Source: Flammulina velutipes
Lineage: Eukaryota > Basidiomycota > Agaricomycetes > Agaricales > Physalacriaceae
Length of the DNA stretch: 64,000 nucleotides
Assembly (NCBI GenBank): GCA_011800155.1
Contig: CM022372.1
Span: forward strand, 310,001 to 374,000
Direction of reading: 5' to 3'
Position numbers and translations under genes: made by a program. Under the pieces are notes generated by a model. It saw only the letters and a list, made by a program, of their open reading frames with translations, did not search any database and had not been told where the DNA came from. Shown in pieces: positions 24,048 through 64,000 of this stretch; positions within the stretch are counted from its first letter, which is position 1, and each line of letters begins with the position of its first letter.

Positions 24048-25708
24048 CTACATCGGCAACTTGAACCCTCCATGCCAGTACTTGCCAAACACGTTCTCCG
24101 GATCGTACACCCTCTTGACTGCTCTCATCTTTTCAAAATTCTCCACGTCCATCCCTCCGTATACATCCTGGCTACCAAGCGCGTAGTTCATATAGATGAA
24201 TGGGTGCAGCACCTGTCGCGCTCTAGCAGCTCTGTCGATATGGTCAATCAGGTCGTCCGTAAATGCCTTCATAACGCGATCATCGCGACTCTGGTCCCAG
24301 AATACACTTCCTAGTATCACTGTATCAACATCAGAATCATGCTAGTACGAAGACAAGTAGACCATACAGAACAGATTGCCGTCGCCTTCCTTCATCCTAG
24401 ACGGGTTGCCTCCATTCCGAGTCCCGGCTGACATCAATCGCTTGTTAATAGGCTGGAACGTCAGCGCCCACGACGCCCCGGGAATATCTACAAGCTCCTT
24501 GAACATCTCCTTACCATCCAAATGCAATGCCCACGCAAACTGCGCATCAGTCTGAATCGTAAACGAAAACCACTGCGCTCTACCACCCCCCGGCGCCGAC
24601 CTCAGCACCTCCTCAGCCATTTCCCCAAGACTACACACCCGCACAGAGCTTGCGAGCGGCTCGTACTGCTCCATTCCAGCGAACAGCGCGGGAAACTCGA
24701 TGGGCTTGAAGTACATCACCGGCGCCCAAATCACGTATCGCCCCAGTGCTTGACTATAGGCCATGCCCACTGCCGTCATACCCTTCGGGTCATCGTCCAG
24801 TTTATCCGTAAACTCTGCCAAATGCGCAAGCAGGGCAGGCGCCGCAGAGATATCGTGCACCTGTGCACCAGCCCAAATCTCACCGATGGGGTACGTCGAC
24901 ATCTCGAACCGCGTCACAATCCCAAAGTTCGTGCTTCCCTGCTTCATAGCCCAGTAGAGATCTGCGTTTTCATTCAAGCTTGCGCCTACGAGGGAGCCGT
25001 TGGCGAGGACCATTTCGTATCGGAGAACGTTATCGCTCCCGAAGCCTTGTTCGGTGGATAGAAATGAGATCCCGCCCTGTGAGTGTGGCGTCAGAGGATA
25101 CTTAACAGGATATTGGGAGACACTGACGTGTATCAGGAATCCACCGACTCCGACGCCTGCTGAGCGACTGCCGACGGTGGTGAGGTTATGAGGAGCCAAA
25201 GCTGGATAGACGTGGGCCGACCAAATCGCCCCGCCTGCAATGGAGACGACGCGCTTGTTGTCAGAGAGCGAGACTTGGTTTATTTGTCCCAAGTCGATGG
25301 TAAATCCGCTGGGTCCAATATTGGAGGCGCCAGACCAGGCCATGTGGCCCCCGCTTTTTACAGCATAGTGACACCGGTTGGTGGTGGAGAGGGATAGAAT
25401 CCGTGAGACGTCTAGTGCGTTACGGGGTGATACTCTACAGGACGGCAAGTCCGATTCTTGTTCTTTCGAGTAGTACTCTTGCTGTTCGAAATAGGCAGTG
25501 GTACCTGGGAAGAACACCTGTTCGGGGAGGGCCACGCTCAAGAGGCTGCACTAAAAGATGGGTAAGTAGTTGGACACAGAGCTGAGAGAGTCGGATTTAT
25601 GAAAATTACACAATTTTTTGCTTGAGACACCGATAATGTAGATGAACTCGGCCAATACTGGTAGAGTAGAGTGAGTAATGCAATTCCAAGAGAGAGGATA
25701 TACATCAT
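24048..25708 (-). CDS. FAD-linked oxidoreductase, berberine-bridge-enzyme type
   Basis: Exons 25610-25708, 25128-25550, 24368-25076 and 24048-24319, with introns of 48-59 nt, give about 500 residues. The N-terminal hydrophobic stretch MMYILSLGIALLTLLYQYW looks like a signal peptide or anchor. Next come CCSLLSVALPEQVFFPGTTA, KSGGHMAWSGASNIGPSGFT (the SGGH histidine is the family's covalent FAD site) and GVGVGGFLIHGGISFLSTEQ (seen only after splicing). The BBE C-terminus reads YMNYALGSQDVYGG and DPENVFGKYWHGGFKLP. These enzymes oxidise alcohols, sugars or hydride-donating natural-product intermediates. It is divergent from P450-A with 403 bp between starts and forms the left end of the proposed cluster. 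The substrate is unknown. Confidence 0.88.
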
Positions 25709-26111
25709 AATGGTGATTAGAGGAGGGTAATTCAAAGACCGACATTTTATGAGGCTCTGGGATACGGGAGGAGAAATACGGCTAGGAAACGGAGAACGCG
25801 ACGCTCCACCGAAAACACTGTTCCTAGTGACTACAGATCCATGGGTTTACCGGACGGTCGTTGGAAGATAAGTTGCGGTCCGGAGAGTCCCGATTCACAC
25901 GATCATTATCATTCCCTTTTGTCGTCCGTATCTCATCTTAGATTCATCACAGATTCACGCCAGATCCTGGCCGGGTCTACTAACTTTGCTTCTTTGTACT
26001 CAGGTAATGACCATGATTATCGGTATCACCGAATGAACCAGACTTGGTGTACAAGCGGGTATTCCACATTCCGCTTTTAAGCTGGGTGCGTCTAACTCAT
26101 TTTACATCACC

Positions 26112-28112
26112 ATGGACTCTACCAACAGTTCTTTTTATCTGCTCGTCAGCGATAGCACAGCGGCTGGGTACAGCTGGAAGGCACTCATATTCGTCGTCGT
26201 CCTCGCATGTACTTTACACCTTGCACGACCAAGGAGCAAGGGCAAGCTTCCTCCTGGCCCGCCAGGTTGGCCTATCATTGGCAACCTCTTAGACCTCAAC
26301 GACCGATCCTGGCACAAGTTCACCGAATGGAAGAAGACATACGGTCAGTCTCTCACATTCACCTGGTTGGTTCGATGTTGATAACCTATAGGTCCCATAT
26401 ACTACGTTAACCTCGCTGGCCAGAACGCAGTAGTGCTTGGCAGCCACAAAGTCGCCGCCGACCTTCTCGACAGACGAGCTAGCATCTACTCTGACCGCGG
26501 AAAGAACATCGTAGCAGGTCAACTTCTCACCGGCGGCCTCGTATTTGCCTTTTCCCAGCACAACGACGTGTGGAAACGCATGCGACGGGGATCCCATGAG
26601 TGAGCCCAAGACCTATGTACGGTAGTGTTTACTCAAATAAATGCCTCCGACAGAGCCCTAAACAACAGCGTAGCCAAGGACTACATGCATTTCCAAGAAA
26701 CCGAGACCGTCCTTCTCATGGACCAGCTCATGCAGAAACCCGCAGATTGGCATAGCCATCTCTGCCGCGCGTCAACGTCTCTTGTCATGTCTATCATATA
26801 CGGCCTTCCTCCCCTCGAGGACTCCAAGGATCCCATCATCGTGCGCGTGAACCACTTCACTGAGCGCGCGCTCGCAGCCGCAGCACCCGGGGCGTACTTA
26901 GTCGAATACTTCACATGGATGCAGTACCTCCCGCGATGGATGTCTCCGTGGCGTGTTTACGCAGAGGAATGGTTCGCTAGAGACTCTGGCTTGTTCGAAA
27001 ACCTTTTCGACGATACGAAGCAGAAGCGTCTGGGAGGCGACGAAACTACAAGCGTCGCTGCTAAGTTGCTGGAGGATATGAAGGTCAACAAGAAGAACCT
27101 AACTGACAAGGAAGCTGCATGGCTGGCAGCTACGCTTTAGTGAGTCCTTCTTCTCTCGCTTTGTCGCCGAGTTATTGGTTCTAATCTTCTTCCTTCCAGT
27201 GCTGCGGGTGCAGAAACCGTATGCCTATTTTTCTTCGATTTTTGTGATTTTTGAAAAGAATGCGAACTTGACAGACGTCCGGGCAGCTCGCGTGGTGGGT
27301 CGTTGCTATGATACTCCATCCCGAAGCACAGAAAAAGGCGCAAGAAGAGATCGATAGGGTTGTCGGGCGCGATCGTCTTCCTTCATTCCGTGACTACGAG
27401 CATCTTCCGTATGTCCGCGCGATGGTCAAAGAGGTTATGCGATGGCGAGGAGTCGCACCACTAGGCGAGTTTCTTTTCCATACCTCACTGGGCCTAGGGT
27501 ATTCATTGATCTATCAGGTGTTCCTCATAGACTGTGCCAGGACGACTATTACGAAGGGCACTTCCTGCCAAAGGACACACTGTGCATCGTCAACGTTTGG
27601 CATCTCAACCATGACCCAGACGTCTATGGTCCCGACGCCGATGAATTCCGCCCAGATAGACATCTCGACAAAGACGGGCGGCTGTTACCTTCCATTGCTG
27701 ATACCAAGGAGGAAGGCCACGTCACGTACGGATTTGGACGAAGGTAAATTCATTTACTTAACCCACATCTTCAACTCCATTGACGGGTGGCTAGGATCTG
27801 TGTTGGGCGACATGTCTCCAACAATAGCATGTTCATTGAAATCGCGTCCATGCTCTGGGGATTCGACTTTTTACCAGGTAAAGACGAAAACGGCATTATC
27901 CAGCTACCGGACCATATGGATAGCCATAACGAGGGTCTTGTTGTGTGAGTTCTGCCCTTGCGCTCGCGTTCTTGGTACTTACGCAGACATCCAGTGGTCC
28001 TGTGAGTTTCCCGTGCACGGTCTCTCCCAGATTTCCGGAGGTGGAGTCTGTCATTCAGCAGTCAATGGAGACGCGTGGCCTGCATAGAATGGGAGAGGGG
28101 AAAGTGTACTAA
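26112..28112 (+). CDS. Cytochrome P450 (P450-A)
   Basis: Heme-thiolate monooxygenase. A membrane anchor ([14 protein letters not shown]) precedes the proline-rich hinge [18 protein letters not shown]. The I-helix is [14 protein letters not shown] across a splice, K-helix ExxR is KEVMRW, the PERF-like motif is FRPDRHL, and the heme loop is YGFGRR/ICVGRH across a splice, so the axial Cys is present. About eight exons total roughly 500 residues. The intron after APLG starts GCGAGT, a GC-AG intron; the paralogue P450-C has GTATGT at the same place. The last intron (GTGAGT...CATCCAG) is needed to avoid a stop and gives [19 protein letters not shown]. It is closely related to P450-C (same SQHNDx[20 protein letters not shown]) and faces away from the FAD oxidase. 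Confidence 0.9.
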
Positions 28113-28697
28113 CACAATAGATAATAGAACTTGTAAATATTGAATAGAACGTTTCGCGTACCGACGCCATATCACTTGCATCCACCAAGAAATGCCAATT
28201 CTGCTGTGTGAAGTCGCCGGCTGGTGAAACAAGTCGGCTCAGGTAGACAGTCAATAGTTTGTACTCCACTACCGGATGGACCCAAAGTCGATTAGCGTAT
28301 GTTAGATAGCCTCACATTACGCGACGTCTCCTGCTTGTACGTTTAAGTATTCATTTCCCGTCTTCTGGGGAGTAACACATAAGGCGTTCCATTTATATCG
28401 ATTTTATCTCAAGCATCTTATTCTCCGTCCTCGCTGTATCAGTAAGTGGTACAATGGGGTGTGGCGCACCTCTACGGAATCAATCTCACATTTCACATGT
28501 GGAGTCTACGTATTACGGACACGCGGATGATTCTAAACAAGCTAGAAGAACGTTTGTATTTGTTTATATACATCTATGTAGTAGTTATATATATCGAGTT
28601 GTAGACAGCGAGAATTAACAGTGAAATAGGTTTGTAAGTGTAGATTTACAAGAAAATAGAGTGATGAAAAGTACTAGTTCGATTATTAACAAAGAAT
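28113..28697. other. Intergenic between convergent P450-A and GMC genes
   Basis: 585 bp with no frame or repeat that I can support; it is AT-rich toward 28600. Confidence 0.4.
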
Positions 28698-31257
28698 CTA
28701 ATTTCCCTTGAGAATGAAATCGGCAGCCTGGATGATATCAGGGATTTTGCTGCGCAAACAAATGACAGGGCGCACCTTCTCGGCAATAGCATAAACGGTT
28801 GACTGAGTGTGTCCGATAGGGAGAGGGAAGATACTCGCGTCGACGACGCGAACGTTGGCCAAACCGTAGACTTTCAAGTAAGTGTCAACGACACCCTTCT
28901 TCTCTCTAGGCGCCAAGGCGTTTGTGCCGATGTAGTGTCCTCCGCTCTGCAAATGGATGAGGTATGTTCGACAAAGAGAAGGCGTTAACGTACGGCTGCA
29001 GTGTTAGCGATCCAGTCCATGATGTCCGCATCAGATGCATCAGGAGCTGGATTGGTTTGGACTTGGATAAGATCGCTGAACGGAGGAGTCGCTCCAACCA
29101 TCCGGATGAATTTGATTGTCTCGAGAGCGATTTGTCTATCTATAAGACGGTCAGTAAGAGATGCAGAATATGACATGATGAGACGTACCGAATTCGGTGG
29201 CGAGAAATGCAGGATCTATGAGGAGGTTCGCAGCAGGGTCAGCGGAGGAGATGTGCTAAATAATTTTGTCAGATCATTTGCGCCAGGATATTACTGCTTC
29301 GTTACTTACGACGCTGCCTCGCGATATAGGGTGTATGTTGCCTCCGAGAACAAAGCAATAGCTCTTGCCCTCCTCGGGTTCGATGGAACCAGTGTTGAGC
29401 TGGATGACCTCTTGCGAGGGGACCTTTCCATCGGTCAGCCATTGTCGTTGCACCTCCATCTGCACGGAGTGAACGCTATCCTTTGGCGCCAGAGCTGCAC
29501 CTTCGTCGTAAAGACGCAGCAACTCGTCCCATCGCTCAGAGCTAATCCAGTCGTGTAACCAGAAGAACGTGAGAGCGGCATCAGTGACAGCGTAAGGGCC
29601 AGTTCCATTTGCCCGACTACAATCATATGTGAGTTTGGCGTTCAATGTCAAAATATGAAAGACTCACTATTCAGCCATAGCTTGTTCGGCGAATGTCTGA
29701 TTGTTCCTCAGGATGTCTGTTGTCGTCCACGTTAGAACATCGATCTGGAGCCAGAGTGAGAAGACGTACCGAACGTTGTGATTCCGTCCTTTAGTTCCCA
29801 CTGCACTCCGGACCAGACGTGCTCCTGGAGATTAGCTCCAACACCTGGAAGTTCAACAACGGTCTCGATATCGAACTGTGATAGCACAGCGGGGTCACCG
29901 ACACCTATAGATATATGAGTTATAAGAAATGACATGCATTCGTGGTCATTTACCAGAAAGTTCCAAGAGCTGTGGCGACTTGATGGGCCCGGATGACAGG
30001 ATGATTTCCTTGGTGGCGTTTACAGCATACGTTGTACTGCCAACCGAGAACTCGACGCCAGAAGCCACGAGGTTCCCAGACTCGTCGGATGAGCCAAAGT
30101 GCAAGCGATGTCCCTAAATGACCTCAGTAAAGGATATGAAAGGCGGTGATCATGGTGCGTACAGTTGCTCCGACGAGAATGTGTAAGTTGTCTCCAGCGA
30201 CACCGTTGCAGTAGTATTGTTTCGCAGAGTAAGTGCGAGTACTATCGGGACGCCTAATAGCTGACCAGGTGTTGTAGACACCGAACGGATTGCCGGCTTG
30301 CTGATGAACAATTAGATACGCGCAAGGGGAACGAAACAAAAGACACTAACAGGCTCAGCAACAGTGTCTATTCCGATGCTGTTCAAAGCCTGAACGTACG
30401 GGACCATTGGATCCGCGTACCAGATTTGATGAGATGCCTGGAGTAGTGTAAGTACGAATGTCAAGTTGAAAGTGACCTGTCTTACTTCCATGGGGCCGTT
30501 GAAACCGTATACCGGCGAGGTCAAGTTCCTCTGCTCATCCGTCAGTCCTGGGAAAGGGTCGGGGGTTACACGAGACATATTCTCGGACTTGATCATGAAT
30601 GGCAAGAGCCCGTCCCAGTTCCAACCATTCTTTGGCCCGAATACTTCCCAAGAGTTGTATTCCTCTTCAGTTGCCCTATTCCAAGCCATCCCGTTTATAC
30701 CACTCGATCCACCCAGCATTCGTCCTCTGACATGATATCAGACCGATAGGAAGTGCAGACTCGTTGTTAGACTCACCGAGGCATAGAAACGGACCGATTG
30801 GCGGCATGTTGTTGAGGAACCATTTGGAAGCTCCAATCGTATTCCTCTCTATTCCAAGCTTGACCCCATATCTCTAAACGAGAACACGCAGGTTAGAAAT
30901 ATGTACGAGAAGAAAAGCGAATCATACATACGTGGAATATCGACAAGGTCATCTTCACGATGGTGCGGTCCTGCTTCAATGACGCCTACGGTGTGGGTAC
31001 CATCCTCAGCGAGCCTGGTAGCCAACGTTACACCAGCGGTGCCGCCACCTGATACCGCGTCAACTTGGCTTTGAATTGACATGGGACGACTTACCTATCA
31101 CAATGTAATCGAACGTTGTTCCCAAAAAATTGTCAATGTCGCTTTGGGAAGGCGGAAATGGCAGCTGAGAGCAAGGACCTGGTCCTTGTGCAGAGACGAA
31201 GGAGTGAAAGAGACTGGAGACAGCGAATAGGACGAAAGGAAGACGTTGGTTAGCCAT
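28698..31257 (-). CDS. GMC oxidoreductase (aryl-alcohol/glucose-oxidase type), secreted
   Basis: A signal peptide (MANQRLPFVLFAVSSLFHSF VSA) is followed by FDYIVIG/GGTAGVTLATRLAE, the FAD-binding GxGxxG split by an intron. The GMC signature is GRMLGGSSGINGMAWNRA, and the second signature SSGPIKSPQLLELSG/VGDP matches the family's GAIxSPxLLxxSG. The C-terminal active site has GGHYIGTNAL and VVDASIFPLPIGHTQSTVYA, supplying the two His-class residues of the catalytic pair. About twelve exons with short introns total roughly 600 residues. Such flavoenzymes oxidise alcohols to aldehydes with release of hydrogen peroxide, either in wood decay or as dedicated natural-product oxidases. Its place between P450 genes favours the latter, but the signal peptide leaves an extracellular role open. 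Confidence 0.9.
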
Positions 31258-32920
31258 TGAAAGGAAAGCGGGGCTGGATTGGACGGAAACTCTTTGAAAA
31301 ATCCCTCTTTATACCATATCCTGAAACAAAAATGAACGGGTGAAGCGCGTCTACGTGAGTCAATACCCAAGAATGGACATCTGAGACTTACCGCTTTGTC
31401 TGTTCCTGGGCGGCATCCGCTCAGTCGAGGGTAAGTGCGGTCCACTAATTATGGCGGTGTTGCTGAGATGGTTTAACTGTCGGATCGGAATTATACTGGG
31501 ACCTAAATTAGATCTATAATCCAGGGGTCAAGATACGCGAGAGGCGAGACTCAGAGGCGAGAAATGTACGAAGTGAATGAACGCCACGACGCGCTACGAT
31601 ACGATATTGAATAAGAGTGTTGAGGATCGTCGGGAAGTCTCTCAGCTGAGCTTCTCTTGATCCGTTGAAATAGCGCATCCCGAGGTACAAACGAGCCGGA
31701 GGCGTGTTGAACATCATGTTCAAGTTGCAATGAAGCCAACTCTCACGTGAGTCATTGCGTCAGAAGAAACATCGCATCTATTTTCGCACGCTGTCCGTTC
31801 ACCCGCCGTCTCCAAGAACAGGCTTAGTAGAACTCACTCCGATCGTGGCGGAGACCTATGCGGCTACATTACAAGTACACCCATAAAGTATGGGCTTGCG
31901 CCACAATCAATCATATTTTTCTTGTGTGCATAATATCAATAAATCCGACGGCTGCGAGATATCTGACCCAATCTTTGAAGATAGGATGTTTTCTCAGACA
32001 GGGACAGGCCGTGTGTAACATCTATCTCTATGGTACGTATGCTAAAGTCCCGGAAGATAAGTAGTATACAGCTTTACTAGTATGTCAAACATGATAGGTA
32101 CTTCGGATTGTGATTTATAGCGATATCTTGATTTTCCGCCATGGAGCAGTCCCGCAGTTCAGGGCGACAATTGGTTCGAGAACAGCAAGCCATTGAGAAA
32201 TTATATTCAGATTGATGTCATTACACATACGCCACATATCATCGAGCCGAACACGACGCGTCTATTCGTACTTCCATCAGCCAAAATGACGAAAAGTGAG
32301 CGTCACTTAGAACTTCCCGTCTAGGAACACGCTACAATCTCCCGCCACAAAGAGCGGAACCGTTTCGTTCACAATTGGGTGTTTCATACAAACATTCGTA
32401 TTGTCTCGATCTCCATGCTTATAATTCCTATTGCGTACGATGCTCCGATAAGATTCATAAGTTTCTGATGAGCTGCAGTACTAATTACTTGCGATTTCTT
32501 TGAGGCAACATTTACCTTCGTTCTGGTCTTTTATTCTTTCCTAAAGGACCTGATACTCTTATTGACAAACTATCATTCCGATTAAGACGAGCGCGATACC
32601 ACGTCACGGTGAAGTACTGTGCATTTATCTTCGCACACGAGTTTCAAAAGTCCGTCCGTGGGAGACTTTTGACACAGGTATTGTAATTGACTGCCTGAAT
32701 GTGCTGAATTGCACAGTTCTCTAGTAGAGGGCACCCCGATGGCCGAGTGAGGGAATATCGCCACCTCAGAAGGTTTCTCGTTTACCTGGTGTGATGTTGA
32801 CTTACTACTTGAACTGAAGGCAGTAGAAACAGAACACGCATCTGGAGGAAAAAACTAGTGATTGACGAGCATCTAGTGAAGCGAACATGTACATTATTTG
32901 TTGCATGAGATTGTAACGAT
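31258..32920. other. Intergenic, 1.66 kb
   Basis: Only short frames are present. A minus-strand stretch at about 31514-31740 (MMFNTPPARLYLGMRYFNG) has protein-like composition but no motif or exon partner. No repeat is noted. Confidence 0.35.
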
Positions 32921-35039
32921 CTATCCTTCAACGTTTGCCAAACCAGCATTTCTAATAAGTTCTTCGGCGTGTTTAGACCGCGGCTTGATGTTACACTGGA
33001 AAGCCAACGGATGACTGAAAAACCATGAATAACGGAATACACCAAATAAGACGGCCACGCACTTCACAATTCCCGAGTCGGGCTCTGGGCTTGGCAGCAT
33101 CACTTTGCCGTCAGGTCCTTCGGCGGGGCTGATATCGAAGACAGCCAAGATACAAGCTGCTGCTATCCAAGCAGTATCGACGGCTTGGAATCGACCCTAT
33201 CGTCAAATACGATCAGAATGGTACAACTACAGAGGCAATGTCGTGAACATTACCGGGCAAACACGAGTTCCGTATCCGAACGCCACCTTCATCGCATCCG
33301 GGACAGTGTTATTCAGCTTTCCTTCTGCGTCTAAATAGCGCTCCGGCCAGAATCTGTCCGGGTCTTCGTAGGTTTCAGCACTGTGGAGAAGAGCCCTACA
33401 CCAAAGGTGAGGATGAATGGTCAATAGGAAAGAGACCAACTTACCACGAGTTTCCCGCCACCATGGTTCCCTTTGGAATGAAGAAACCTTTGTATATGTC
33501 GTCTGCTGCAGTCGCATGAGCCAGCGCTGTGAGGATAGCGATAAATAAGAGAATGCACATCTTTTACGAAGATTTACTTACTGACTGGAGCCGCCCAACG
33601 CAGAATTTCCTTCATTATAGCCGTAACATATGGCAAGTTTGCTTCGTCTGAGAATTCGGGGAGGCGTTCAGATCCCACAACGCGGTCGAGCTCGGCGTGT
33701 GCCTTAGCCTGCACGTCGGGATGAAGTACCATGAGCAAAATAACGAAGCGAATGACTCCGACAGTCTGCGACACGAATGTTAGCAAAACTGCTACCCAGA
33801 GCAGAACATGGCGTTTACTGTATCTGAGCCGCCGACATATAGCGTGCCGGACAACGATCGGATTATCGTGTCAGCGAATTGAGGGTCGTCCCACTTGTCT
33901 TGGATTTGGTCGGCCAGTACCGTCGTGAGGCAAGGACTCGCAGTTCCATTTTTCTGTCAGGTTCATGAGCGAGTTGATACATGATGAAAGCAGCGGAAAC
34001 TTACAAGCTGCTCCTGTAACCAATCGTATGGCGCGTCCCGCATCTCGAATCCCATGCGTTTGTATTCCTCGACATCCGCCCTCCATCCCAAGCCAGGAAT
34101 ACGCGACATCCATACCGGAATGTGTTGCACTGAGTGCAGATTAGTTGAGATAAAGCATAGAGGAGGAACTCAGCTTACACCAAGGAAACATATCCACCGG
34201 ATTAGATGCGGAAACTGACCTCTCTAAACCTTCAGAGCCCTTCTCGGCGATCTCAATGTACGGATCGTTCTCTAGCTGCACCTTCATGCCATAAGTCATC
34301 TGCAAAATAAGCGAGCCAGTCATGCTACCATCAATGAGTCTTTGAGATTTACAGACTGCGAAAATACACTCACTAGCGACAACTCTGATAGAAGTCATCT
34401 GGATTCTTGAGAATCTTCTTGATCAGGCCGTGAGCCATCGAAACCTCGAGTGGTCGATACTGTCGCGCGGCGACTTGACGGAAATGGGGAACGAACTCTT
34501 TGCGACAGGCTTTCCACAACGCCTTGTTGGAACTGAAGCCCCAGTTCCAGTTGAAACCCGCACTAGAATACCGAGTTATTGGGCATACAGACAGTGTGAT
34601 CGTGGTAGCTCACGCTTCATTAAGCAACGGAAGTCGAGGCCTACATTAGACGGTTCAACCTTGTGTATTGTTATAGACTCTGCACTTACCTCTCGGAATA
34701 AATATTGGCACGTCGCTCGAATAACTCTTCGATAGTCTTCATGTCGTTCAAGATGACGATCCTCGTGCCTAGCATGTTGACACTGATGATGGGAGAGTCT
34801 ACGAAAGGCATTAGGGTAAGCGCGAAAACCAACATTGATGCCAGGATGAAGGACGTACTCAGCTCTTTCGACATCTTCGCGAAAGCAATCCATTGTCCTT
34901 TGGGAGGTACGTCGAAGATGTTCCCGAGCACGGGAAGTCCCTTCGGCCCAGGTGGGTAGGGATACTTGTTGCGTCGAAAGAATACGAACAATAGCCCAAG
35001 GGCTCCGAGGAGGATAGCGACTTGCAAACGAGATAGCAT
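32921..35039 (-). CDS. Cytochrome P450 (P450-B)
   Basis: The N-terminal anchor is MLSRLQVAILLGALGLLFVF and the hinge YPYPPGPKGLPVLGNIFDVP. The I-helix is GGSDT followed across a splice by VGVIRFVILLMVLHPDVQ. ExxR is KEILRW, the PERF-like motif FWPERYLD, and the heme loop AFGYGTRVCP/GRFQAVD. The last splice gives NHPLAFQCNIKPRSKHAEEL. About twelve or more exons, all with short introns, total roughly 510 residues. It belongs to a different P450 subfamily from A and C (sequence clearly dissimilar outside motifs). It is head-to-head with P450-C, with a MITE in the shared upstream region. Confidence 0.88.
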
Positions 35040-35153
35040 TAGACGTGCTACATGACAAAGGTGACCTCTTTATAACACCGAGATGCGAAGAGACCGCAAA
35101 CTGATAAGTAGCATGACCGTGTTGGAGCGCGTTGCGGCATTTGCCACCAACAG

Positions 35154-35646
35154 CAAGAGGAAAGCCCGATCCAGATCTTGGACACTGATCAAGCCACGCG
35201 AGCCAAATGCCGATCAGGCGGCCGGCCACTGAAGGGAATTTCAGTGGCGCAAACCGTCGTCCATCTACCTTAGTATTCCGATCTCAATTAGTAGTGCTCT
35301 CTCATGAAAGAAGGTTTTCTGCGAAGACATGTAACTTTCTGTGACCGATTCTTGCATAACATACTGGAATCCTTTCACTCAGATATCTGGTATATTCTCA
35401 CAGGTTGGGAGACCTTCTATTAGTTGTGAGGTGAGATGATATGGCATACAAATGACTCTAAAAATTGTATTTTCTTGTGTCATGAGAGTGGTAGACGAAC
35501 TCGATAAGTGGCGCAGCGGTTGTAAGGACCGGAATCCTTGATCCATTGATGGCCGTGAAGGTCACGAGATCTTCCTCCTTCCTTTTTCTGGGGGGTGGGT
35601 GGGTCGTGGGAATCGTTTCCAAGATCTGAATCGGGCTTTCCTCTTG
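35154..35646. mobile_element. MITE, hAT-like, copy 2 (493 bp) between two P450 genes
   Basis: The same family as 2604-3092, with the same CAAGAGGAAAGCCCGAT / ATCGGGCTTTCCTCTTG ends and nearly identical interior. The target duplication is ACCAACAG (35146-35153 and 35647-35654), different from copy 1. It fills more than half of the 942 bp separating the start codons of P450-B (35039) and P450-C (35982). Confidence 0.92.
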
Positions 35647-35981
35647 ACCAACAGAGTTAAGGCTAATAGCCGCCGGCACCATCCTTTTTACCTCATCCCA
35701 TCGCTCACTAGAAATCTCCGTAGATATGTCCAACGGGGAAATCTCGCGCTCTGAAGAACATTGTCTCGTTAAGGTACGTTGTTGATCATTGTCAGTATCC
35801 TATTGTCTCCACTTACACCCTTTTGTCAATCTAGATGGCACTTCGTGCGGTCCGACTAACCTCAATCAGACTCTAGTTATGTCTGATCTCAAATAGGTGG
35901 TTGTCACAATTTAGAAATGACAAACGATATAACTCAAAGCCAGCCTAGAAGCTGCAATTGTATCGCACAAGTCCAGCCAAT

Positions 35982-37954
35982 ATGTCCACTCTGCGTTCTT
36001 TCTCGACCCCCTTCATCGACCTCCCCGTTCTCGATCGTCAAATGGTGCTCAGCTGGCAAGCTCTCGTCAGCTACACCTTCGCCTTCCTCCTCATTCGCTG
36101 GGTCTTCTCAAATAAACCCGCCCATCCACTTCCTCCCGGCCCGAAGGGATGGCCAGTTCTAGGAAACCTCCTCGAGTTAAACGACCGCTCCTGGCACAAG
36201 TTTTCGGAATGGAAGTCTGTCTATGGTACTTCCATTCTGCTTCTAGTTTTTGAGCTCGTTCTGACTCTTATCCTAGGCCCGCTTGTGTACATCAATATCG
36301 CTGGTCAGAACGCCATTGTCATCAACAGCCACAAGGTAGCTGCAGACCTCCTCGACCGACGCGCTGGCATCTACTCCGATCGCGCAAAGAACATCGTCAC
36401 TGGCGTCCTAACTGGCGGCCTCATGTTCGCGTTTTCCCAGCACAACGACCTGTGGAAGCGCATGCGCCGGGGTGCACACGAGTGAGTAATTCATTTTTTT
36501 GCTCACGACTAACCTGACTCGCTCCGCAGAGCTATGCATATGCAGGTAGCGAAGAATTATCATGGACATCAGGAGGCCGAGACCGTTCTCCTCGTGGAGC
36601 AGCTTCTGAAGCATCCTAATGCTTGGGATAATCATATCCGACGTACAGGTGTCTCGCTCATGATGTCGATCTTGTACGGCGTACCTCCACTCAAAGACTC
36701 GAACGATCCCGTCATCAATCGCGTCAACCATTTCTCAGAGCGCGCTCTTCATGCTGCGAATCCCGGGTCCTTCTTGGTCGAGTACTTCAATTGGATGCAG
36801 TACCTTCCTCGCTGGATGTCTCCGTGGCGCCGATATGCAGAGGATTGGTTCGCCAAAGACTCTGTTATGTTCAAAGAACTTTTCCACCTTACTTCGGCTC
36901 GGAAAGAGGCAGGCGACGACACGGCTAGTGTGTGTGGCATGCTCATCGACGACCAGCGTCAGTTGCGCACTAATCTCACCGACGTCGAGGGTTCTTGGGT
37001 TGCCGCCAATCTTTAGTATGTTCTATCATTTTCTTTCTGCGCTTCAATCGCTTATTGCACTCATTTAGCTCTGCTGGTGCCGAAACGGTGCGCTTGTCTA
37101 GCTTGTTATCACACGCAAACTTACAATTTTCAGACTTCGGGCCAGATGGCATGGTTCTTCATGGCTATGCAGCTGTATCCAAGGACTCAGAAGGCTGCAC
37201 AGGAAGAGATTGACCGAGTCGTTGGTCGAGAGCGTATGCCTTCATTCAGAGACTTTGAACAGATGCCGTACATTCGGGCTCTTGTCAAGGAGTGTTTGCG
37301 CTGGCGTAGCGTAACGCCTCTCGGTATGTGTAGTTATCTTGTGATGTTGCTTCGTCCTGATCGAACGACAGGTGGGCCTCATCGTCTCTGCCAGGACGAT
37401 ATCTATGAGGGTATGCTGATCCCCGCGGATACTGTCTGTATCGTCAACGTCTATGGGCTCAACCACGACCCCGAAATCTACGGCCCCGATGCTGAAGAGT
37501 TTTGTCCCGAGCGTCACCTCGATGGCGATAAACTCAAACCTGCACTCCCCGACACCAAGGAAGAAAACCACGTCACATATGGATTTGGACGCAGGTGCGC
37601 ATTGTTCAATTTACGTCGGGGCGCTCTCTCATTGAAACAACTAGAATCTGTGTTGGGCGGCATGTCGCTAATAACAGTCTGTTCATTCAGATCGCTTCCG
37701 TTCTCTGGGCGTTCAATATCACAGCTGGTCCTGGGGGAGATGGAAAGGTCGTTCCTCCCAACCCTATGGACAGCGATAACCAAGGGCTTGCGGTGTAAGT
37801 AAATTCGTTTTCGGTTAGTTTCTTGGCTTATATAACTCTTTCAAGTCGTCCCATGGCCTTCACATGCAAGGTCACTCCTCGCGCTCACCCAACCGAACTC
37901 TCGCCTATCATTCAGCAGGTGAAGGAGAATTTTGGACTGCAGGACTATCAGTAA
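35982..37954 (+). CDS. Cytochrome P450 (P450-C), paralogue of P450-A
   Basis: Start MSTLRSFSTPFIDLPVLD. An anchor (LVSYTFAFLLIRWVF) and hinge PLPPGPKGWPVLGNLLELND follow. The I-helix is SAGAET/TSGQMAWFFMAMQ, ExxR is KECLRW, the PERF-like motif FCPERHLD, and the heme loop [16 protein letters not shown]. Exon order and intron positions match P450-A almost one for one, so the two arose by duplication. Stop TAA at 37952, after VKENFGLQDYQ. About 510 residues. Within the proposed cluster it would hydroxylate or further oxidise the isoprenoid intermediate; position and substrate are unknown. Confidence 0.9.
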
Positions 37955-39500
37955 CTTCGCAGCGATTGTAACCATAAACATAGATCAAAGAATTCAAAGT
38001 TTGGTAGAACAGAACCGCAGTGATATCTTCGTTACTAGTTTCTTTCGTGATACAATGTACCCACCTTACAGTGTTATAGGTTCAAAGTCGGATTCTCTGT
38101 TATCGACCGTTACAACCCTAGGCGTGACTTGAACTCCCATATCACGGTGGAGTGTGGAGTGTTGAGAACTTGAAAATATGGGGGATCTTACAACTTAAGA
38201 TCGAATAGATCTCCCAATATTTGGGCTTTCTCTTCGATTTGGAGCTTTTCTCAAAGGTCAAAGGTCAAGTCATTATACAGATTACAGCCGGCGAGTCCCT
38301 TCGTTGAATTGGCGTTCATTACCCGTTTAGGACGGTCAGCTAAACCCGGATCCTTTTGCCTCCGTACCACCATCCGCAAAGTGAGTTTGTAAACCCGTTT
38401 GCCATCCTTTATCTCACTGACTTGCGTTAAGGGTCGTTCTCGACTCATTCATGTCTTATCCATCATTTCTCTCGTTGAGAGTGAGCAACATCCAAAATGT
38501 CCCATATTCAGCACTGTGCTTCGCGCAAACAATCATCCTAGATTCGTATCCATCAAAGACCCCCACAATCCGACAGTCTTGACGCCATATCCATAACCTG
38601 GTGGCGTTAACGAAGCTATGGCAATGCCCCAACCTGATTGACTTGCGTTCGTCGAGAACGACCATCATTCTCGCCCGCCGTACCCTGCAGCAACTCCCGT
38701 ACGTTCGATATCTCCTAATGAACTATCTCGCACGTTTCCGACTCGAAGGATATACTACTATCTGATATTTCTCGTCAGATGCACGCTCCCAGCCTGCTCT
38801 ATGTGTTCACGACCGTGACGCCTACTTCAGAATCATAGTTTTGTATCATGGACTCGATGACTGTGACTGCTCGTTAATCCAATGATCTACGACCAGCCAA
38901 GTAAGTGAAGTCGTTCTCCTCAACTTACTACCAGTACGTTCCTCTCTCCTCTCTAAAATCTGGTCAAATCTAACGACCATTCATTCAGCTCTATTATTTG
39001 GTTTGTACTCGCCACTGCGACACACTTCACAAGTGTAGATGCGAAAATCATACATGTCAATGACAAACCTTCGGCTCATGCGCTTAGTTCTAGCGAAGCC
39101 CGATTCCGTAACCAACATTGGAACTTGAACGAAAACATTGACGTTCGGAAGGCCAGTCCGTTCGGATCGCTCTTCGTCGACAGCTCGGGATTGAATTTGA
39201 GCCTCCAAAGTCGAACATCCTAAGCCATTCAGCGAAATGTCCATATGCTCGCCGCATTCACAAGAGACGGGTCTTCAAGGATGGTGTATGAGCCTCGAAG
39301 ATCATTCGTGAGTAGTAGAGATTTTCGTAACTTTGTATGGTTGTAGTGGGAATCGGTCAATGACGGGGATGTGGGAATATGTCTAAATGATAGGTCTGAT
39401 TCGTTTCTATGGAATTGGTGTACTACGAGGAAAGAAAACATACAGTACGTGAATCTCTATCGTACATTCGACTCCTACTAACAGAAATATTTCTAGGGCT
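37955..39500. other. Intergenic, 1.5 kb
   Basis: Short frames only. Minus-strand pieces at 38456-38668 (SFVNATRLWIWRQDCRIVGV) and 38981-39244 (LPNVNVFVQVPMLVTESG) may be remnants of decayed genes, but no family or exon chain can be supported. Confidence 0.35.
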
Positions 39501-40563
39501 TCAGGCAAAGTGACGAACCCAAAATGGAAGAACCTGGCTAATACAGAGCCATGCCTAGAACATACCGTTCAGTGAGTTTCTAGGAACAGTTCTACGACCG
39601 TTCGCATACCATATAGTACCTCAGGGAAACTTTGTCTTCGTACTCCGACCGCTGAGTCAATATACGTGTCGCGAGGTACGTCCCGAGCATGACATAGGAC
39701 GCAATCTGGAGCGCACTCAACTTCCAAAAGATGGAAAGCCCGAAAGTCCATGCAAGTACGACGGTGAAAGTCATCTTCCTGCTGAACTCTGGCATGACCA
39801 CCGGGAAGGTAATACGTTCCTGCATCCTATCCCCGACTTCATCGCGGAAGTCCTGCACATGAATCGTTGTCGAGATCAACAAGGTACTGACATATGGGAT
39901 GATCCATTCTATTCCGCCGCCTCCTATCGTGAGAGTGAGTGTTAATTTTAGCAACCAGGTTAATTCGACATACGAGCGCCACTGATTCTTGCGGCTCCAA
40001 CGTTCCAGGACACGAGGCCGACAGCGTTCAGAAAGTTCTTGGAATACCAGGCATTGTCCAAACCGAGCTCGTTATACACAACGAAAGACAGTGTCAAGGA
40101 TACTCCAGGGTAGACGACATCGAACGCAACGGACAACGCCAGACAGATCGGGACGAGTGCCCAACGTAGTATCTTCGTTCCTCTCACGGTCATCAGACCA
40201 GCGGGAATAGGTCTGTATGGCTTGTTGATGGTATCTTCCTCGACGCCGTACATCTGATTCGCGGCGCAGAACTGGAGGAGGTAGAGCCAAATCCAAACAA
40301 GCAGCTTGGGAAAGGTATTCAAGGAGAGCTGTGGTGCGGCGAGCACGCCATAAAAAAGCTGGCACCATTAGTATTGGGCTGGCTATAGTATTAGAGAAGC
40401 TTACTGTGGGAACAATAACTGTTTTGTAGTCTGAATGAGTGAAGGCATACGCTGTGGCGCCCAACCACCGGAGCCCGTTTAGCACGTCCTGCGCAAGAAT
40501 CTCGGACACGTTCGAGGAACCATGTCCCATCTTGACGCGATAATGAGAGGAAACTGAGGTCAT
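39501..40563 (-). CDS. UbiA-family membrane prenyltransferase / terpene cyclase
   Basis: Exons 40405-40563, 39974-40358, 39610-39923 and 39501-39554 (introns 46, 51 and 55 nt) give exactly 303 residues, the usual UbiA size. The first metal-binding motif is NQMYGVEEDTINKPYRPIPA, i.e. N-x(7)-ED in place of the canonical NDxxDxxxD; the NKPxRPIPxG tail is typical of fungal members. The second motif is IHVQDFRDEVGDR (DxxxD). Hydrophobic helices surround both (LLVWIWLYLLQFC, WALVPICLALSVAF, MTFTVVLAWTFGLSIFW). Fungal relatives include UbiA-type sesquiterpene and diterpene cyclases as well as aromatic prenyltransferases; sequence alone does not decide which. It lies in the membrane. It is the only skeleton-building enzyme in the region and therefore the presumed core of the cluster. 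Confidence 0.9.
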
Positions 40564-41198
40564 GATTAAGGATAGAGGAGAGGACTTTCGTTTTTCTGAG
40601 CAATTAAAACTGCGAAGGTTATTGAGATATATAGTGACCCGGTGGCTGGATCTTAGTAATACAAGAAAATCCCAACCAAGTAGGTCACCTATCTGCTTTC
40701 AGTGCAGAAAGTACGTGCAATGATAGGTATCCGAGTCAAGTAAAATGGCTCTTCTGATTTGAATTTCATAAGATAGTCGGTGGTCGGATAGCCGGAATTT
40801 TACTCATACCATTGCGTCGTGATGTGGATTGGTACATGTCCCTGTACAATAAGCTTACTGTCCACTCAAACGATATCGAAACAATGTAAGGACATCAATT
40901 AAACGTGGACGACGGAACCTTAGCAATACGAACCCGGAATTTTCTATGATTTGGAGTCCTTGGAACCTCCAGTAAATATAGTAATACCGCAGCCATCACT
41001 CCCCTCCTTGCGCGTTTATTTTCTACGCCACACTACGAAAGAACTCTTCAAGCTTATAGTTCAAGAAGATACTGAGATCTGAGATTCATAATTAAGATCT
41101 TACCAAATTACATCGCTTCTCCGATTCGTATCTGCCAGTAACGACATCCCTTTGCTACAAGTTCCCGCAGATTCACATTCGTTAGAGATAGCAATCTT
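40564..41198. other. Intergenic, 0.63 kb
   Basis: This is the promoter region of the UbiA gene and the 3' flank of the next minus-strand gene. No frame or repeat is supported. Confidence 0.4.
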
Positions 41199-42851
41199 TC
41201 AACCGACAGACCATTTCAGGCGGCTATCAAGACTAAGTTCACCCAATAGATCCACATCCCTGAAGACGATCGCAGACGTGAGAACTCCCCTCTTCAACGT
41301 TCCTCGAGTTTCCATATCCAGCATCCTCAACGCCGACGATACGAATAGAAGTGGTGTGACGACATACGCGGCCTCAGCCCCATCAATGCGTCCGACCACA
41401 GATACGTCGGGTTGTTCCGTCAAAGACCTATCTTCAGAATACCCTAACATAACGTTTGATATTAGACTTAGTATCCCACAATCACGCAACCAGACACTAA
41501 CCTTTGCCATAGAAGATCTGGGAGAACCGTCCACGCAGTAGTCTAGGACGAATCAATTAGCTTTGTGGAGTCAATTGAACAGTAAACGGAATAATATACT
41601 GGTCTTTGGACGGACCCTCGAACGAGGCCACGCCATGAGTGAACAACTTCGGATGCGCCAAGAGCAGCTTTCTTCCCCATGGCCTACCAACCAAAAATAG
41701 AAACACGGCAAAGTAGAACTTGAACAGGAGGAAGGCCCAGAGTGTGGGAAGCACGAAGTATGCATGAAAATGCACCGAATGTGGCGCAGTCGACCCGGAC
41801 TTGGAATCTTCAAGGTAGATATCTAGGACTTGAGACATATGCACGACGGATGGATCTAAAAGTATCTCCATGAGTAGAAGTCCAAATTATGGGGTTGGTA
41901 TATACCAGCGACGAAGTAAGGAACGAGATAGCCGTCGACTCGAGGGTCTTTCATCGCCCCGAACGAATTACCCTTCACAGGCGAAGACTTGCCGACTGGA
42001 TTTGGAATGGGCCAGATATTCGACAGGTCTTCGCGCACTGCCATCAAATCCACCATACCCTGTGAGAAACCATGAATCGCGGACTCGAATGTCGTGTAAT
42101 GAACTGTAAACTAAGTAAGCAATAGAAATATTAAGCTATACAGTTACATTTACCTCCGTAACGGCCTGTACTTTCAAAGCGGCAAAACATGTCAATTGTA
42201 GACGGAATACCATGTTTGGCGATGATGGCTTTCTTCGTTTCAAGGACACCGAGATCGCAAGGCATGCAATCAAACGCCTGTAGTCAGAATGTCACTATCA
42301 TTCAATACAATACGGGAAACACAAACCGCAGCATGCAAAATAGTGACGCCAGCATCTACCGCATCATGATGATGCTGAAGGTGCATCCTTTCGATGAACT
42401 CCGGTTCGCCTAGACACAATCATAGTGTCGAGAAGTTGATTGTGGTAACAGAATTTGGACTAACCGGTAATGTCAAGATAGTTGGCGTGTCCTTTGATAC
42501 ACGCTTTCACGACTGGCTCACCGAATAAGCGGAACGGACCGACACAGTTCATGATCACTAAGCAAATAATAATCATGAGCCGTGCACAATACTATGAGCG
42601 TGCAAAGAACCACCTTTAGCTTGGTGTGCCATCTCAAGCATCTTCAAGTCATCTGTTACATCAGCAACAATGACCTCCGGGATCGGAGCTGATTTGCATT
42701 CGAGGGATTGCTGGAGGGACTTGAGAGCGATTGTGTTCCTTCCAGCGATACCCCAAGTAAATCCTGCGGGAAGATCTTTCGCGTTGGCGATTTCTTTCAC
42801 TACGAAACCAGCAGTAAAGCCTGTGGCCCCGTAAACGATGAGGTCGAGCAT
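41199..42851 (-). CDS. Saccharopine-dehydrogenase-like oxidoreductase
   Basis: The Rossmann N-terminus is MLDLIVYGATGFTAGFVVKE, followed by AGRNTIALKSL and VIVADVTDD. Downstream exons read NCVGPFRLFGEPVVKACIKG, HANYLDIT/GEPEFIERMHL and AAFDCMPCDLGVLETKKAI. A membrane-like segment follows (WAFLLFKFYFAVFLFLVG). The end splices to LLRGRFSQIFYGKGYSEDRS and YVVTPLLFVSSALRML. This matches the family of saccharopine-dehydrogenase-like / trans-acting enoyl-reductase-like proteins found in fungal and actinobacterial lipid and terpenoid pathways. About 420 residues with seven or eight exons. It is divergent from the NmrA-like gene over 293 bp. It probably performs an NAD(P)H-dependent reduction of an enal/enone intermediate; this is inference. 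Confidence 0.85.
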
Positions 42852-43144
42852 GAGTGGAGTGTTAATTCATAAGCAACGTCTTGTCAGTTTTTGAACTGCC
42901 TCGAACGCCGGCTGCGATGAAGACGGTCGTTGCAAAGCTTGATTTGGTATAGATATGTCGTTTTAATCAGGCTGGTAGACTCATCGGAAGCGGACTCGTT
43001 ACTATTCAATCGCAGGCATAACTCTTCCGGTTCCTGTATGAGTTGATTCCTTTCCCACGGAGCTCTTGTAGACATGTCCAAGTAAGAAGCGCTGAAGATA
43101 AGTACAAAAGGATCTACTTACTTGTTCTAATCTACCATCAGACA
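42852..43144. promoter_or_regulatory. Divergent promoter region between two reductase genes
   Basis: 293 bp separate the start codons of the saccharopine-dehydrogenase-like and NmrA-like genes, transcribed away from each other. No specific motif can be named. The arrangement would allow co-regulation. Confidence 0.5.
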
Positions 43145-44227
43145 ATGTCGACTTACGAGACTTTTGCTATCGTAGGACTTGGGCGTCTTGGTATCGATAT
43201 CGCTCGTGGGATTCTGGAGGTCAAGCGCTCCAAGCGTCCTGAAGTGAACGTCAAACTCATCATCCGTCATGTACACCAATAGTACTTATCTCTTTTGATT
43301 CTATCACTGACAAAAATGTAGGAATCGTTGTCCTCTGGTGAAGCGAACACGCTAGAAGCGGATGGCGCGGAGGTTCACAAGGTTGACTACAGTAGGCCCG
43401 CCACCATCCTCGCTGCGTTGGAGGGCGTCGATGTCCTGGTATCCACCATCGGCTACTACGGACTCTCAGCGCAAGATGCCTTAGCCGACCTTGCCAAGAC
43501 CTCCGGAGTGCGTCTGTTTGTTCCCAGTGAATTCGGCGCGCGCAGCGACGCAATGGCAGATGAAGCATTCACAATCAAAGAGCGCTTCCGACAGAAACTG
43601 ATCGCGAACGGTGTCAATTACGCTGTTTTCTACTCTGGCTTCTGGGCTGATTTTGATCTCCGTCCGTGAGTACTTGTTCACTGGCATCCATACCTACACG
43701 AGTTCGACTAATGGTACTATCTACGTATAGAATGATCCTGAGTGGGTGGTTCGGAATGGATCTCAAGAATAGGAAGATAGATAAATGGACGAGTTGGGAC
43801 GTGCCCCTCTCGTTCACGACACAGAGAGATGTGGCGCGGTTTGTGGTCCACGTCCTGACCATGCTGTCTCCAGATCAGTTGGAGAACAGGATTTTCCGTA
43901 TTGAGGGTGATCGTCAGGTAAGATACCGACCTGGTCGTCCATTGAAGGCTCCGACTAATGGATTTTGAGACATGGGACTCGTTGTTCTCTGCATTCTTGG
44001 ATCGATCAGGAGAAAAATGGAGAGACATGGACGTAATCTACCGAACACGCGCGGAGCTCGATGCCAAGCTGGAGAACGAGCCCGGAGATGTGGGTAAAAG
44101 ACTTTTGAGAGCGGCAGAAGACGGCATGTTCTGCGTTGAGGTAGATGGAGCGGGATTGGATAACGAAGTGTTCCCCAGTTGGAATGCAGAGAAAGCCCTG
44201 GATGTTATGATTGCAAGCTTCGCGTAG
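43145..44227 (+). CDS. NmrA-like / isoflavone-reductase-like NAD(P)-binding protein
   Basis: The N-terminus MSTYETFAIVGLGRLGIDIA carries the dinucleotide-binding GxGxxG. Next come LEGVDVLVSTIGYYGLSAQD and the family's GVRLFVPSEFGARSD (SEFG motif), then FYSGFWADFDLRP/MILSGWFG and RDVARFVVHVL. The lysine of the KxxxxxxL segment (FTIKERFRQKL) is present. Four exons splice cleanly (RH/ESLSSG, RP/MILSG, DRQ/TWDSLFS), giving about 310 residues. In the family these act as reductases of phenylpropanoid or other small-molecule substrates, or as redox sensors. Its position between two other reductases supports a catalytic role. Confidence 0.87.
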
Positions 44228-44471
44228 TAGCCGTACGAGATTCAAATCAATGCGTCATTATGGACAGATCTAGGGCACGATCCTACGCATCGATCAAATA
44301 GAAGCCGGAATCAATAGTGGTGCCCATTGAATATTGAATACCGGAGCTGGCGAATGTGCGCTCTATACAATCATGCCGGAAGATGACAACTCCCTAGTCA
44401 TATACGCTGATACAATATACCGAATACTTCATAACAGCAGCACCAAGTGATTGCCTTACTAACTAATCCCA

Positions 44472-46125
44472 ATGTCTGCCCCTCCCAAGAATATGCCATA
44501 TGGTACGCAAATTTCTAGTGAAAAGGAATAGCCCTGATCTCTCGTTCAGTTACGCTCGGAAATTCCGGGCTCAAGGTCTCGAAGATTATCCTAGGATGCA
44601 TGTCCTATGGCTCTTCCAAGTGGCAGCCTTGGGTTCTCGACGAAGAGGAGAGTATCAAGCACATCAAGTTCGCGTATGCATCTTTCTTTTCATACTCACC
44701 GACACGTCTAAGATTTGAACAGGTACGATAACGGGATTCAGACCTTTGACACTGCCGATGTGCGTCTCTTTGTTCTCATCGCGGAGTTCCCTCACCTCGT
44801 TTCATTAGGTCTACTCGAACGGACAAGCCGAAATCGTCCTCGGTAATGCCATCAAGAAACTTGAACTCCCGCGGGAGGAAATCGTAGTCATGACAAAGGT
44901 GCGCCACATTCCGCAACTTCGTAGCAAACCACTCAACCATTCGACAGATCTGTGGCGCCGTCGGGAAAGAAGTAGGTACCTCGGCCTGGGAGCTTCTCGT
45001 TGCAGGCCCGGACAACGTCGGATACGTCAACCAACACGGTCTCTCCCGTAAACACATCGTCGCCGGCGTCAAAGCCAGCTTGAAGAGGCTCCAACTTGAC
45101 TATATCGATGTTTTGCAGTGTGCGCCTTTATTTGTACTTCTCGTTGCGCGTTGTGTTTGCTGACTGAGATTGATAGGCCATCGCTTCGACTACGGGACTC
45201 CCATTCCTGAAATTGCAAGTCTTCGTCTCTATCTGCTCTTATGTGTCTCATTTTCTACTAGATGACTGCTCTTCACGAGGTAGTCCAGGCGGGATTAGTG
45301 CGCTACATCGGCATGAGTTCCTGCTATGCCTACCAATGTACGTCCCTTTCATAGTTCCAAAAGCTAGTTCTGACGATTTAATAAGTCCACGCGATGCAAA
45401 GTACGCACAAGACTAGCCCTCATCTAAAGCGCATTGTTTATTTTATCCGCAGACTACGCTATCACGCACAACCTGACACCATTCATCTCGATGCAGAACC
45501 AGTACAGCCTCGTTTACCGCGAGGAAGAGCGCGAAATGATGCCGACGCTCAAGGTTAGTTGGTTTGACATTGTATTTTAGGAAGCAGTCTTTTACCTATT
45601 GTGAAGCACTTCAACGTTGGCTCCATCCCATGGTCCCCACTTGCTCGTGGAGCGTTGACTCGTCCACCCGGACAAGAGGTCAAGACACTCCGCCAAGAGA
45701 GCGATGAGATGACTGCCGACCATTACTTTGCCCTCGGGGCCGGAAACAGACAGGTCGCAGAGCGGTGAGCACCTTGTCTTGGTTTGTGCCTTCTGCTTAA
45801 ACATGAATAGAGTCAATGAAATCTCGAAGAAACACAACACCACCATGGCACAAGTTGCCCTCGCCTGGGTTATGAGCAAAGACGGTGAGTAATATTGGGC
45901 AACTGTAGTTCTGTTTTCTGACGATGTTTTAGTGGTGACTGCTCCCGTCATTGGAACGACGTCGATCGAGAAGATGAAGGATCTCCTAGGTAGGTTCACA
46001 GGAATAGCTGTTTTCAGTTTCGCTGATAAGTCGTTACAGGCGCTATCAATGTCAAGCTCACCGAGGAGGATATCAAGTACATGGAGGAGCCGTACAAGCC
46101 TATGCAGATCCACGCATTCATTTGA
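44472..46125 (+). CDS. Aldo-keto reductase (yeast-AAD/plant-type)
   Basis: The start is MSAPPKNMPY, with a GTACGC intron joining to VTLGNSGLKVSKIILGCMSY. The catalytic Asp/Tyr are in FDTAD/VYSNGQAEIVLG, the Lys in EEIVVMTK, and the His in LQCHRFDYGTPIPEIM. Later come GLVRYIGMSSCYAY, LTPFISMQNQYSLVYREEER, IPWSPLARGALTRPPGQ and VVTAPVIGTTSIEKMKDLLG. About eight exons, roughly 350 residues, all four tetrad residues present. It reduces aldehydes or ketones with NADPH. It is the last gene of the proposed cluster at the right side. Confidence 0.9.
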
Positions 46126-47354: not shown

Positions 47355-47537
47355 GGTGAATTCAGTATAGCTGCGTACAGTTTTTCGACCTGGTCGTGCT
47401 GGTTGTTTGCCTTGCCTGCCGCCTGACGAAAACATATTATAGGACAGAAATGAAGCGGCCCTAACGTGCTCTGACGTCACAGGCCAATAACAATTGCCCA
47501 CTCACTACTTACGATCGAAGCAACTCTTCTTTTACAT

Positions 47538-63926: not shown

Positions 63927-64000
63927 GATTAGAAGGGTGATTGTTAGATAGACGAATATAAAAAGAAAAAGGAAGGGGGCATAGGTTGTATAAATAACAG
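63927..64000. other. Window edge inside element 2
   Basis: 74 bp upstream of the pol frame, AT-rich. The rest of the element (5' LTR, gag, protease) is presumably outside. Confidence 0.5.

Follow-up and report, generated by a model that had tools for sequence, protein, structure and literature searches.

The motifs by which classical terpene synthases are recognised are missing from terpene cyclases of the UbiA type, and cluster finders built on those motifs may therefore, we suggest, miss them. Mushroom gene clusters built around such enzymes are already known. As far as the available portions of the respective reports describe them, the eri cluster of Hericium erinaceus makes cyathane diterpenes with the UbiA cyclase EriG (PMC12843870), the col cluster of Cyathus olla encodes the UbiA cyclase ColB (PMC11186289), and the tps1 and tps2 clusters of Antrodia cinnamomea contain the UbiA-type bisabolene synthases Tps1A and Tps2A (PMC9835599). 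The latter source gives NXXX(G/A)XXXD and QDXXDXXXD as the motifs of UbiA-type terpene synthases. For Hohenbuehelia grisea, where prenyltransferases were sought, the accessible text reports no UbiA-like gene in 21 fungiSMASH clusters (PMC11574748). Here we describe nine adjacent genes of Flammulina velutipes that very probably belong together as the biosynthetic cluster of an oxygenated terpenoid. They lie in the window, the whole stretch of 64,000 nucleotides that was analysed (positions 310001-374000 of contig C5). With the eri cluster, so far as the available text sets it out, they share a UbiA cyclase (predicted in our case), three cytochrome P450s, an FAD-dependent oxidase and reductases (PMC12843870). 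An earlier note on this DNA had proposed a UbiA-centred terpenoid cluster like those known around UbiA cyclases; the proposal is strengthened by the cyclase motifs, by the absence of NDXXDXXXD and by the sharing of contigs between UbiA and P450 genes in Agaricales. Judged from its sequence, the cluster is probably functional and a real one of the UbiA terpenoid type, and it has its own tailoring set.

Nine genes around a predicted UbiA cyclase

The block occupies positions 24048-46125 of the window and consists of the following genes:

24048..25708, minus strand: BBE-like (VAO-type) FAD oxidase; 500 amino acids (aa), 4 exons, N-terminal hydrophobic stretch (possible signal peptide), SGGH motif
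26112..28112, plus strand: cytochrome P450 CYP1; 542 aa, 8 exons including a GC-AG intron, heme motif FGRRICVG
28698..31257, minus strand: GMC flavoprotein oxidase; 635 aa, 14 exons, N-terminal hydrophobic stretch, GGH motif
32921..35039, minus strand: cytochrome P450 CYP2; 515 aa, 12 exons, heme motif FGYGTRVCPG
35982..37954, plus strand: cytochrome P450 CYP3; 541 aa, 8 exons
39501..40563, minus strand: predicted UbiA-type terpene cyclase; 303 aa, 4 exons, motifs I and II, Tyr148
41199..42851, minus strand: saccharopine-dehydrogenase-like (SDH-like; SCCPDH type) NAD(P)-binding reductase; 389 aa, 9 exons
43145..44227, plus strand: NmrA-like / isoflavone-reductase-type reductase; 304 aa, 4 exons
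44472..46125, plus strand: aldo-keto reductase (AKR); 350 aa, 13 exons

All nine reading frames are intron-rich and complete from start to stop, without internal stops; the introns are short (median 52 bases in the gene-finder predictions). Adjacent genes are spaced 244-1663 bp apart, three divergent pairs are separated by short intergenic stretches of 403, 942 and 293 bp, and the gene finder predicts no further gene inside the block, its two largest gaps included. Every family named is backed by Pfam (p450 three times, GMC N and C, UbiA, Sacchrp_dh_NADP, NmrA, Aldo_ket_red, FAD_binding_4 and BBE). In the BBE-like protein, FAD_binding_4 scores above its cut-off and BBE exactly at it (20.6 bits). 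The heme motifs of the P450s, SGGH of the BBE-like protein and GGH of the GMC oxidase are legible in the translations. The intact models, the Pfam matches and the outer coordinates 24048 and 46125 all agree with the earlier description of nine genes of these families side by side with no unrelated gene between them, and as contiguous, intact, pathway-type genes they have the make-up expected of a fungal biosynthetic gene cluster. The models come from a self-trained gene finder with re-weighted settings, trained on the window and 20 further stretches of 10 kb. Splice sites were checked by hand in the BBE, CYP1, GMC, CYP2 and CYP3 genes and throughout the UbiA gene; the SDH-like, NmrA-like and AKR models are gene-finder output as given. 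The UbiA gene, with its weak coding statistics, was missed by the gene finder, and its model was built by homology and by hand.

The UbiA protein is most likely a terpene cyclase and not an aromatic prenyltransferase, COQ2 or COX10, since both cyclase motifs are present and the prenyltransferase motif NDXXDXXXD is absent. It matches the UbiA superfamily PF01040 with 78.3 bits against a cut-off of 34.2; motif I, NQMYGVEED (residues 87-95), fits NXXX(G/A)XXXD, and motif II, QDFRDEVGD (residues 205-213), fits QDXXDXXXD. Tyr148 stands 53 residues past Asp95 (55 in Tps1A, whose Y155 was compared by spacing only), and 42 of 44 relatives have Tyr at this place. For a relative, a UbiA membrane helical fold is predicted. 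Orthology to COQ2 or COX10, which the earlier note had named as a finding that would count against a cluster, was rejected on account of the cyclase-type motifs and of six UbiA loci with different motifs elsewhere in the genome.

Among the 44 homologues, QDXXDXXXD recurs in 42, NDXXDXXXD in none and the strict (G/A) form of motif I in four. Ser occupies the Gly/Ala place in 34 of the 44 aligned relatives, so the Gly of the window protein is uncommon inside its own clade. A title in the reference list of PMC11745945 speaks of a sub-group of UbiA-type cyclases with a distinct motif I. The named homologues are 42-64% identical and belong to Agaricales (Pleurotus, Mycena, Marasmius, Moniliophthora, Stygiomarasmius and others), the best being PLEOSDRAFT_1050368 of Pleurotus ostreatus (64%). 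A tree was built from the window protein, 30 of the 44 homologues and one own paralogue, the 14 homologues left out being mostly short; it has long outer branches and unsettled bootstrap values, and only its two supported nodes are used here. The first pairs the window protein with a metagenome protein, P0001 (69% identity, support 100/100), and the second sets this pair in a clade of 24 rows (100/99) with named members from Pleurotus, Mycena, Marasmius, Moniliophthora, Stygiomarasmius and Collybiopsis. We know of no product for any Agaricales relative of the protein, and no characterised member of its clade was found.

CYP1 and CYP3 are 63% identical, and CYP2 is 34-35% identical to both; CYP3 is a probable local duplicate. 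To assess linkage, the 44 UbiA homologues were compared with CYP3 homologues (the best 120 of 1038, giving 118 usable rows), and two genes were taken to share a contig where contig size and species matched. Nine of the 118 rows, five of them among the ten best, share a contig with a UbiA relative, which suggests that a UbiA-P450 core is conserved in other Agaricales. The linked rows come from Mycena maculata, Stygiomarasmius scandens, Collybiopsis luxurians, M. floridula, Dendrothele bispora, M. galericulata (twice), Marasmius oreades and M. fiardii. By locus tag, the UbiA and P450 genes are six apart in M. oreades and 23 apart in Stygiomarasmius; the other seven are linked only at the level of contigs, which reach megabases. 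In all nine linked P450s the similarity to CYP1 exceeds that to CYP3, which makes CYP1 the probable older partner of the UbiA gene and CYP3 a probable copy of it.

Proposed pathway and rival explanations

In the pathway we propose, the UbiA-fold membrane protein would bind Mg2+ through its two Asp-rich motifs, ionise a linear prenyl diphosphate, as motifs and fold suggest, and cyclise it rather than pass it to an aromatic acceptor. The substrate is more probably than otherwise farnesyl diphosphate (FPP) drawn from primary metabolism; geranylgeranyl diphosphate (GGPP) is a tentative second candidate. A sesquiterpene product is accordingly favoured, tentatively, over a diterpene; the preference comes from the absence of a prenyl-diphosphate synthase match (PF00348) on C5, set against the GGPP synthase present in both eri and col. 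PF00348 was found at four genomic loci, none on C5 and none among the nine genes. Going by the chemistry of their families, hydroxylation of the hydrocarbon might next fall to CYP1, CYP3 and CYP2. The two flavo-oxidases, BBE-like and GMC, could turn the alcohols into carbonyls, and the three reductases (AKR, NmrA-like and SDH-like) could act on carbonyls or conjugated/activated double bonds. A precedent for the role of the BBE-like gene is EriM of the erinacine pathway, a FAD-dependent oxidase that, in the part of the report available, makes an allylic aldehyde which then rearranges non-enzymatically (PMC12843870). Substrate, order of steps, product and co-regulation are in this sense what we infer.

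The BBE-like oxidase counts EncM and 6-hydroxy-D-nicotine oxidase among its solved relatives, the GMC oxidase is nearest to a putative glucose oxidase and to aryl-alcohol oxidases, the AKR to perakine reductase and the NmrA-like protein to phenylcoumaran benzylic ether reductase. Since both flavo-oxidases begin with a hydrophobic stretch, they may act in the secretory path or extracellularly. For the SDH-like protein, a sequence search of the PDB found nothing at E < 0.28. Its gene has a paralogue about 70 kb away (C5:422450-424031, L029) that is 65-80% identical by exon, and beyond this the genome holds only one weak SDH-like match; by eye, the paralogue is flanked by alpha/beta-hydrolase-like predictions and a gag-like frame. 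Given the nearby paralogue and the unlinked relatives in both species compared (see below), the SDH-like reductase was perhaps recruited locally. To our knowledge, a role as terpenoid ene-reductase is unreported for the SCCPDH family, and among the papers listed by a literature search (15 of 24) the term 'saccharopine dehydrogenase' does not occur. The joint proposal that the Agaricales clade with mostly NQXXSXEED as motif I, often with its own P450 partner, makes a skeleton new to UbiA enzymes and that the SCCPDH-like protein is a terpenoid ene-reductase is speculative and rather unlikely to hold in both parts. If the SDH-like enzyme does act on a terpenoid, a new enzyme family would enter terpenoid tailoring.

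Several observations weigh against a terpenoid cluster. None of the nine genes encodes a transporter, regulator, transferase or prenyl-diphosphate synthase. Counted by eye, species with a UbiA match supply 26 of the 118 CYP3-relative rows, and 17 of these 26 lie off the UbiA contig; the unlinked rows include Moniliophthora, Pleurotus pulmonarius and M. rebaudengoi. The Ser variant falls outside the published pattern of motif I, so the activity of the clade is extrapolated. Two distant homologues (P0042 and P0043) are labelled 4-hydroxybenzoate polyprenyltransferase by their source, yet both carry QDXXDXXXD. For promoter words of 7 to 10 bases in six intergenic regions, the largest sharing was matched by 178-200 of 200 shuffles. 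Finally, when the best 120 of 446 SDH-like homologues were compared, the two species also having a UbiA relative, Mycena vitilis (47% identity) and Stygiomarasmius (50% over 63%), carried their SDH-like gene on another contig. The earlier note had held that orthologues at scattered loci would argue against a cluster: such scattering is seen for the SDH-like gene, linked in neither species, and not for the P450s.

The alternative that survives best is a diterpene cluster of the erinacine/cyathane kind supplied with GGPP by a synthase encoded elsewhere. This is a variant of the terpenoid-cluster explanation and overlaps with it, and we regard it as possible, if doubtful. A UbiA cyclase, three P450s and a FAD oxidase are the core of the eri cluster in the available description (PMC12843870), and the window motif I carries Gly in line with the (G/A) pattern. 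However, both eri and col are described, in the portions available, as encoding their own GGPP synthase, and there is none in the block or on C5. EriG is likewise not named among the 44 homologues, in a search that needs shared words of five residues and in which most rows bear no specific name.

It is improbable that the genes serve no single pathway, as they would if oxidoreductases had come together by chance next to retroelements, or if the reductases had nothing to do with a UbiA-P450 pair. Ty3-type retroelement frames to the left and right (8.7-18.5 kb and 60.2-64 kb) and the unlinked SDH-like gene in both species checked would fit such an origin. Against it, none of the nine genes is broken and each is of a tailoring kind, with the three divergent pairs noted above, and three P450s within 13.5 kb of the UbiA cyclase are hard to expect by chance. 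With P450s at no fewer than 86 separate places (at least that many from 92 of 301 candidates scored) in the genome scanned (38.12 Mb, 23 contigs), the probability of three of them lying within 13.5 kb of one given gene is about 3.6e-5, or about 4e-4 with 200 places; the figure is a Poisson sum for a distance picked post hoc and ignores the frequent clustering of P450 genes. A prenylated-aromatic (meroterpenoid) cluster, whose UbiA enzyme would prenylate 4-hydroxybenzoate or hydroquinone in the manner known for clavilactone, vibralactone or pleurotin, was left open by the earlier note and is now very unlikely: such prenyltransferases are described in several basidiomycetes in the available texts (PMC12790560, PMC11574748), but the window protein and its homologues have QDXXDXXXD (42 of 44) in place of NDXXDXXXD (none of 44), and the Pfam results for the scanned window predictions contain no polyketide synthase, phenylalanine ammonia lyase or decarboxylating monooxygenase.

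Surroundings of the block and other UbiA loci

To the left, an unrelated gene was taken as the boundary of the cluster and not as part of it:

20748..22492, plus strand: WD40 protein

We take this protein to be Utp18-like. The left flank also holds a 110-aa prediction without a Pfam match and, left of the WD40 gene, a Ty3-type retroelement frame (window 8723-18457, minus strand) with gag, reverse transcriptase, RNase H and integrase. On the right, a single-exon prediction of 244 aa (46701-47435, minus strand) has a fair coding score, an apparent internal repeat and no Pfam match; farther out are a few weaker predictions, one of them (248 aa) without a Pfam match, and a second Ty3-type frame (window 60210-63998, minus strand). 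In the next 10 kb (L021, 53-9991), a long frame resembles a third retroelement, judged by gag-like sequence and length. The domains seen across the flanking retroelement frames are gag, protease, reverse transcriptase, RNase H and integrase. With the WD40 gene and these frames at the edges, the nine genes are placed between the WD40 gene and the retroelements.

Across the genome, at least 24 PF01040 matches group into 12 loci. Six of these are cyclase-type by motif II (the window, C1:2665k, C8:2534k, C9:268k, C9:2252k and C3:1645k), and the remaining six carry other motifs; the closest own paralogue of the window UbiA protein is 41% identical. At C1:2660500-2670499 (L012), a UbiA gene with NQTFSGPED and QDFADVEGD is accompanied by an AKR, a P450-like prediction and an alpha/beta-hydrolase-like gene. 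This second UbiA-P450-AKR neighbourhood is a candidate terpene cluster. Its AKR is 42% identical to the window AKR, which has paralogues up to 77% identical over single exons, so the C1 enzyme is not the closest to it. The other four cyclase-type loci (L013, L014, L015 and L018, at C8:2534k, C9:268k, C9:2252k and C3:1645k) have no clear biosynthetic neighbours by eye in their 10 kb stretches. On C8, two very similar UbiA genes with a DDILDYDID motif lie about 9 kb apart on opposite strands (C8:2427k and C8:2437k; L010 and L011), and at C8:2296200-2306199 (L016) a UbiA gene of the NDXXDXXXD type stands, by eye, near a P450 and a methyltransferase-like prediction, a possible prenylated-aromatic cluster.

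Comparison with described systems

A literature search over titles and the starts of abstracts, with most subscription journals outside it, returned no description of the window gene set. The complete nine-gene example and a P450 partner that recurs across genera make a target for heterologous expression, and the window cluster offers a way to test the products of the whole Agaricales UbiA clade.

Compared with eri, for which the available text lists a GGPP synthase, a glycosyltransferase, an ABC transporter and a second UbiA protein, EriF (PMC12843870), the nine genes include none of these. Pfam thereby agrees with the earlier note that the block has no GGPP synthase, glycosyltransferase or transporter, and neither a glycosyltransferase nor an ABC transporter appears among the scanned flanking predictions. 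The col cluster, as far as described, also has no EriJ homologue; its ColB is 304 aa long against 303 aa in the window (PMC11186289). The tps1 and tps2 clusters resemble the block, in the available description, in their cyclase motifs, several P450s and several reductases, and no prenyl-diphosphate synthase is mentioned there either (PMC9835599). By description only, tps1 differs in its methyltransferase Tps1D; the window has none and instead has the BBE-like, GMC, SDH-like and NmrA-like genes.

The fumagillin pathway is a polyketide-terpenoid one. Its beta-trans-bergamotene synthase, Fma-TC of Aspergillus fumigatus, has the same pattern of cyclase motifs in the text available (PMC9835599); it comes from an ascomycete, and no Aspergillus protein is named among the 44 homologues of the window UbiA protein. 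The UbiA relatives in Agaricales differ from the window in having mostly Ser in motif I instead of Gly and in having the SDH-like relative on another contig in both species compared; they are like it in a motif II that is nearly always the same and in a CYP1-kind P450 on the same contig in nine cases.

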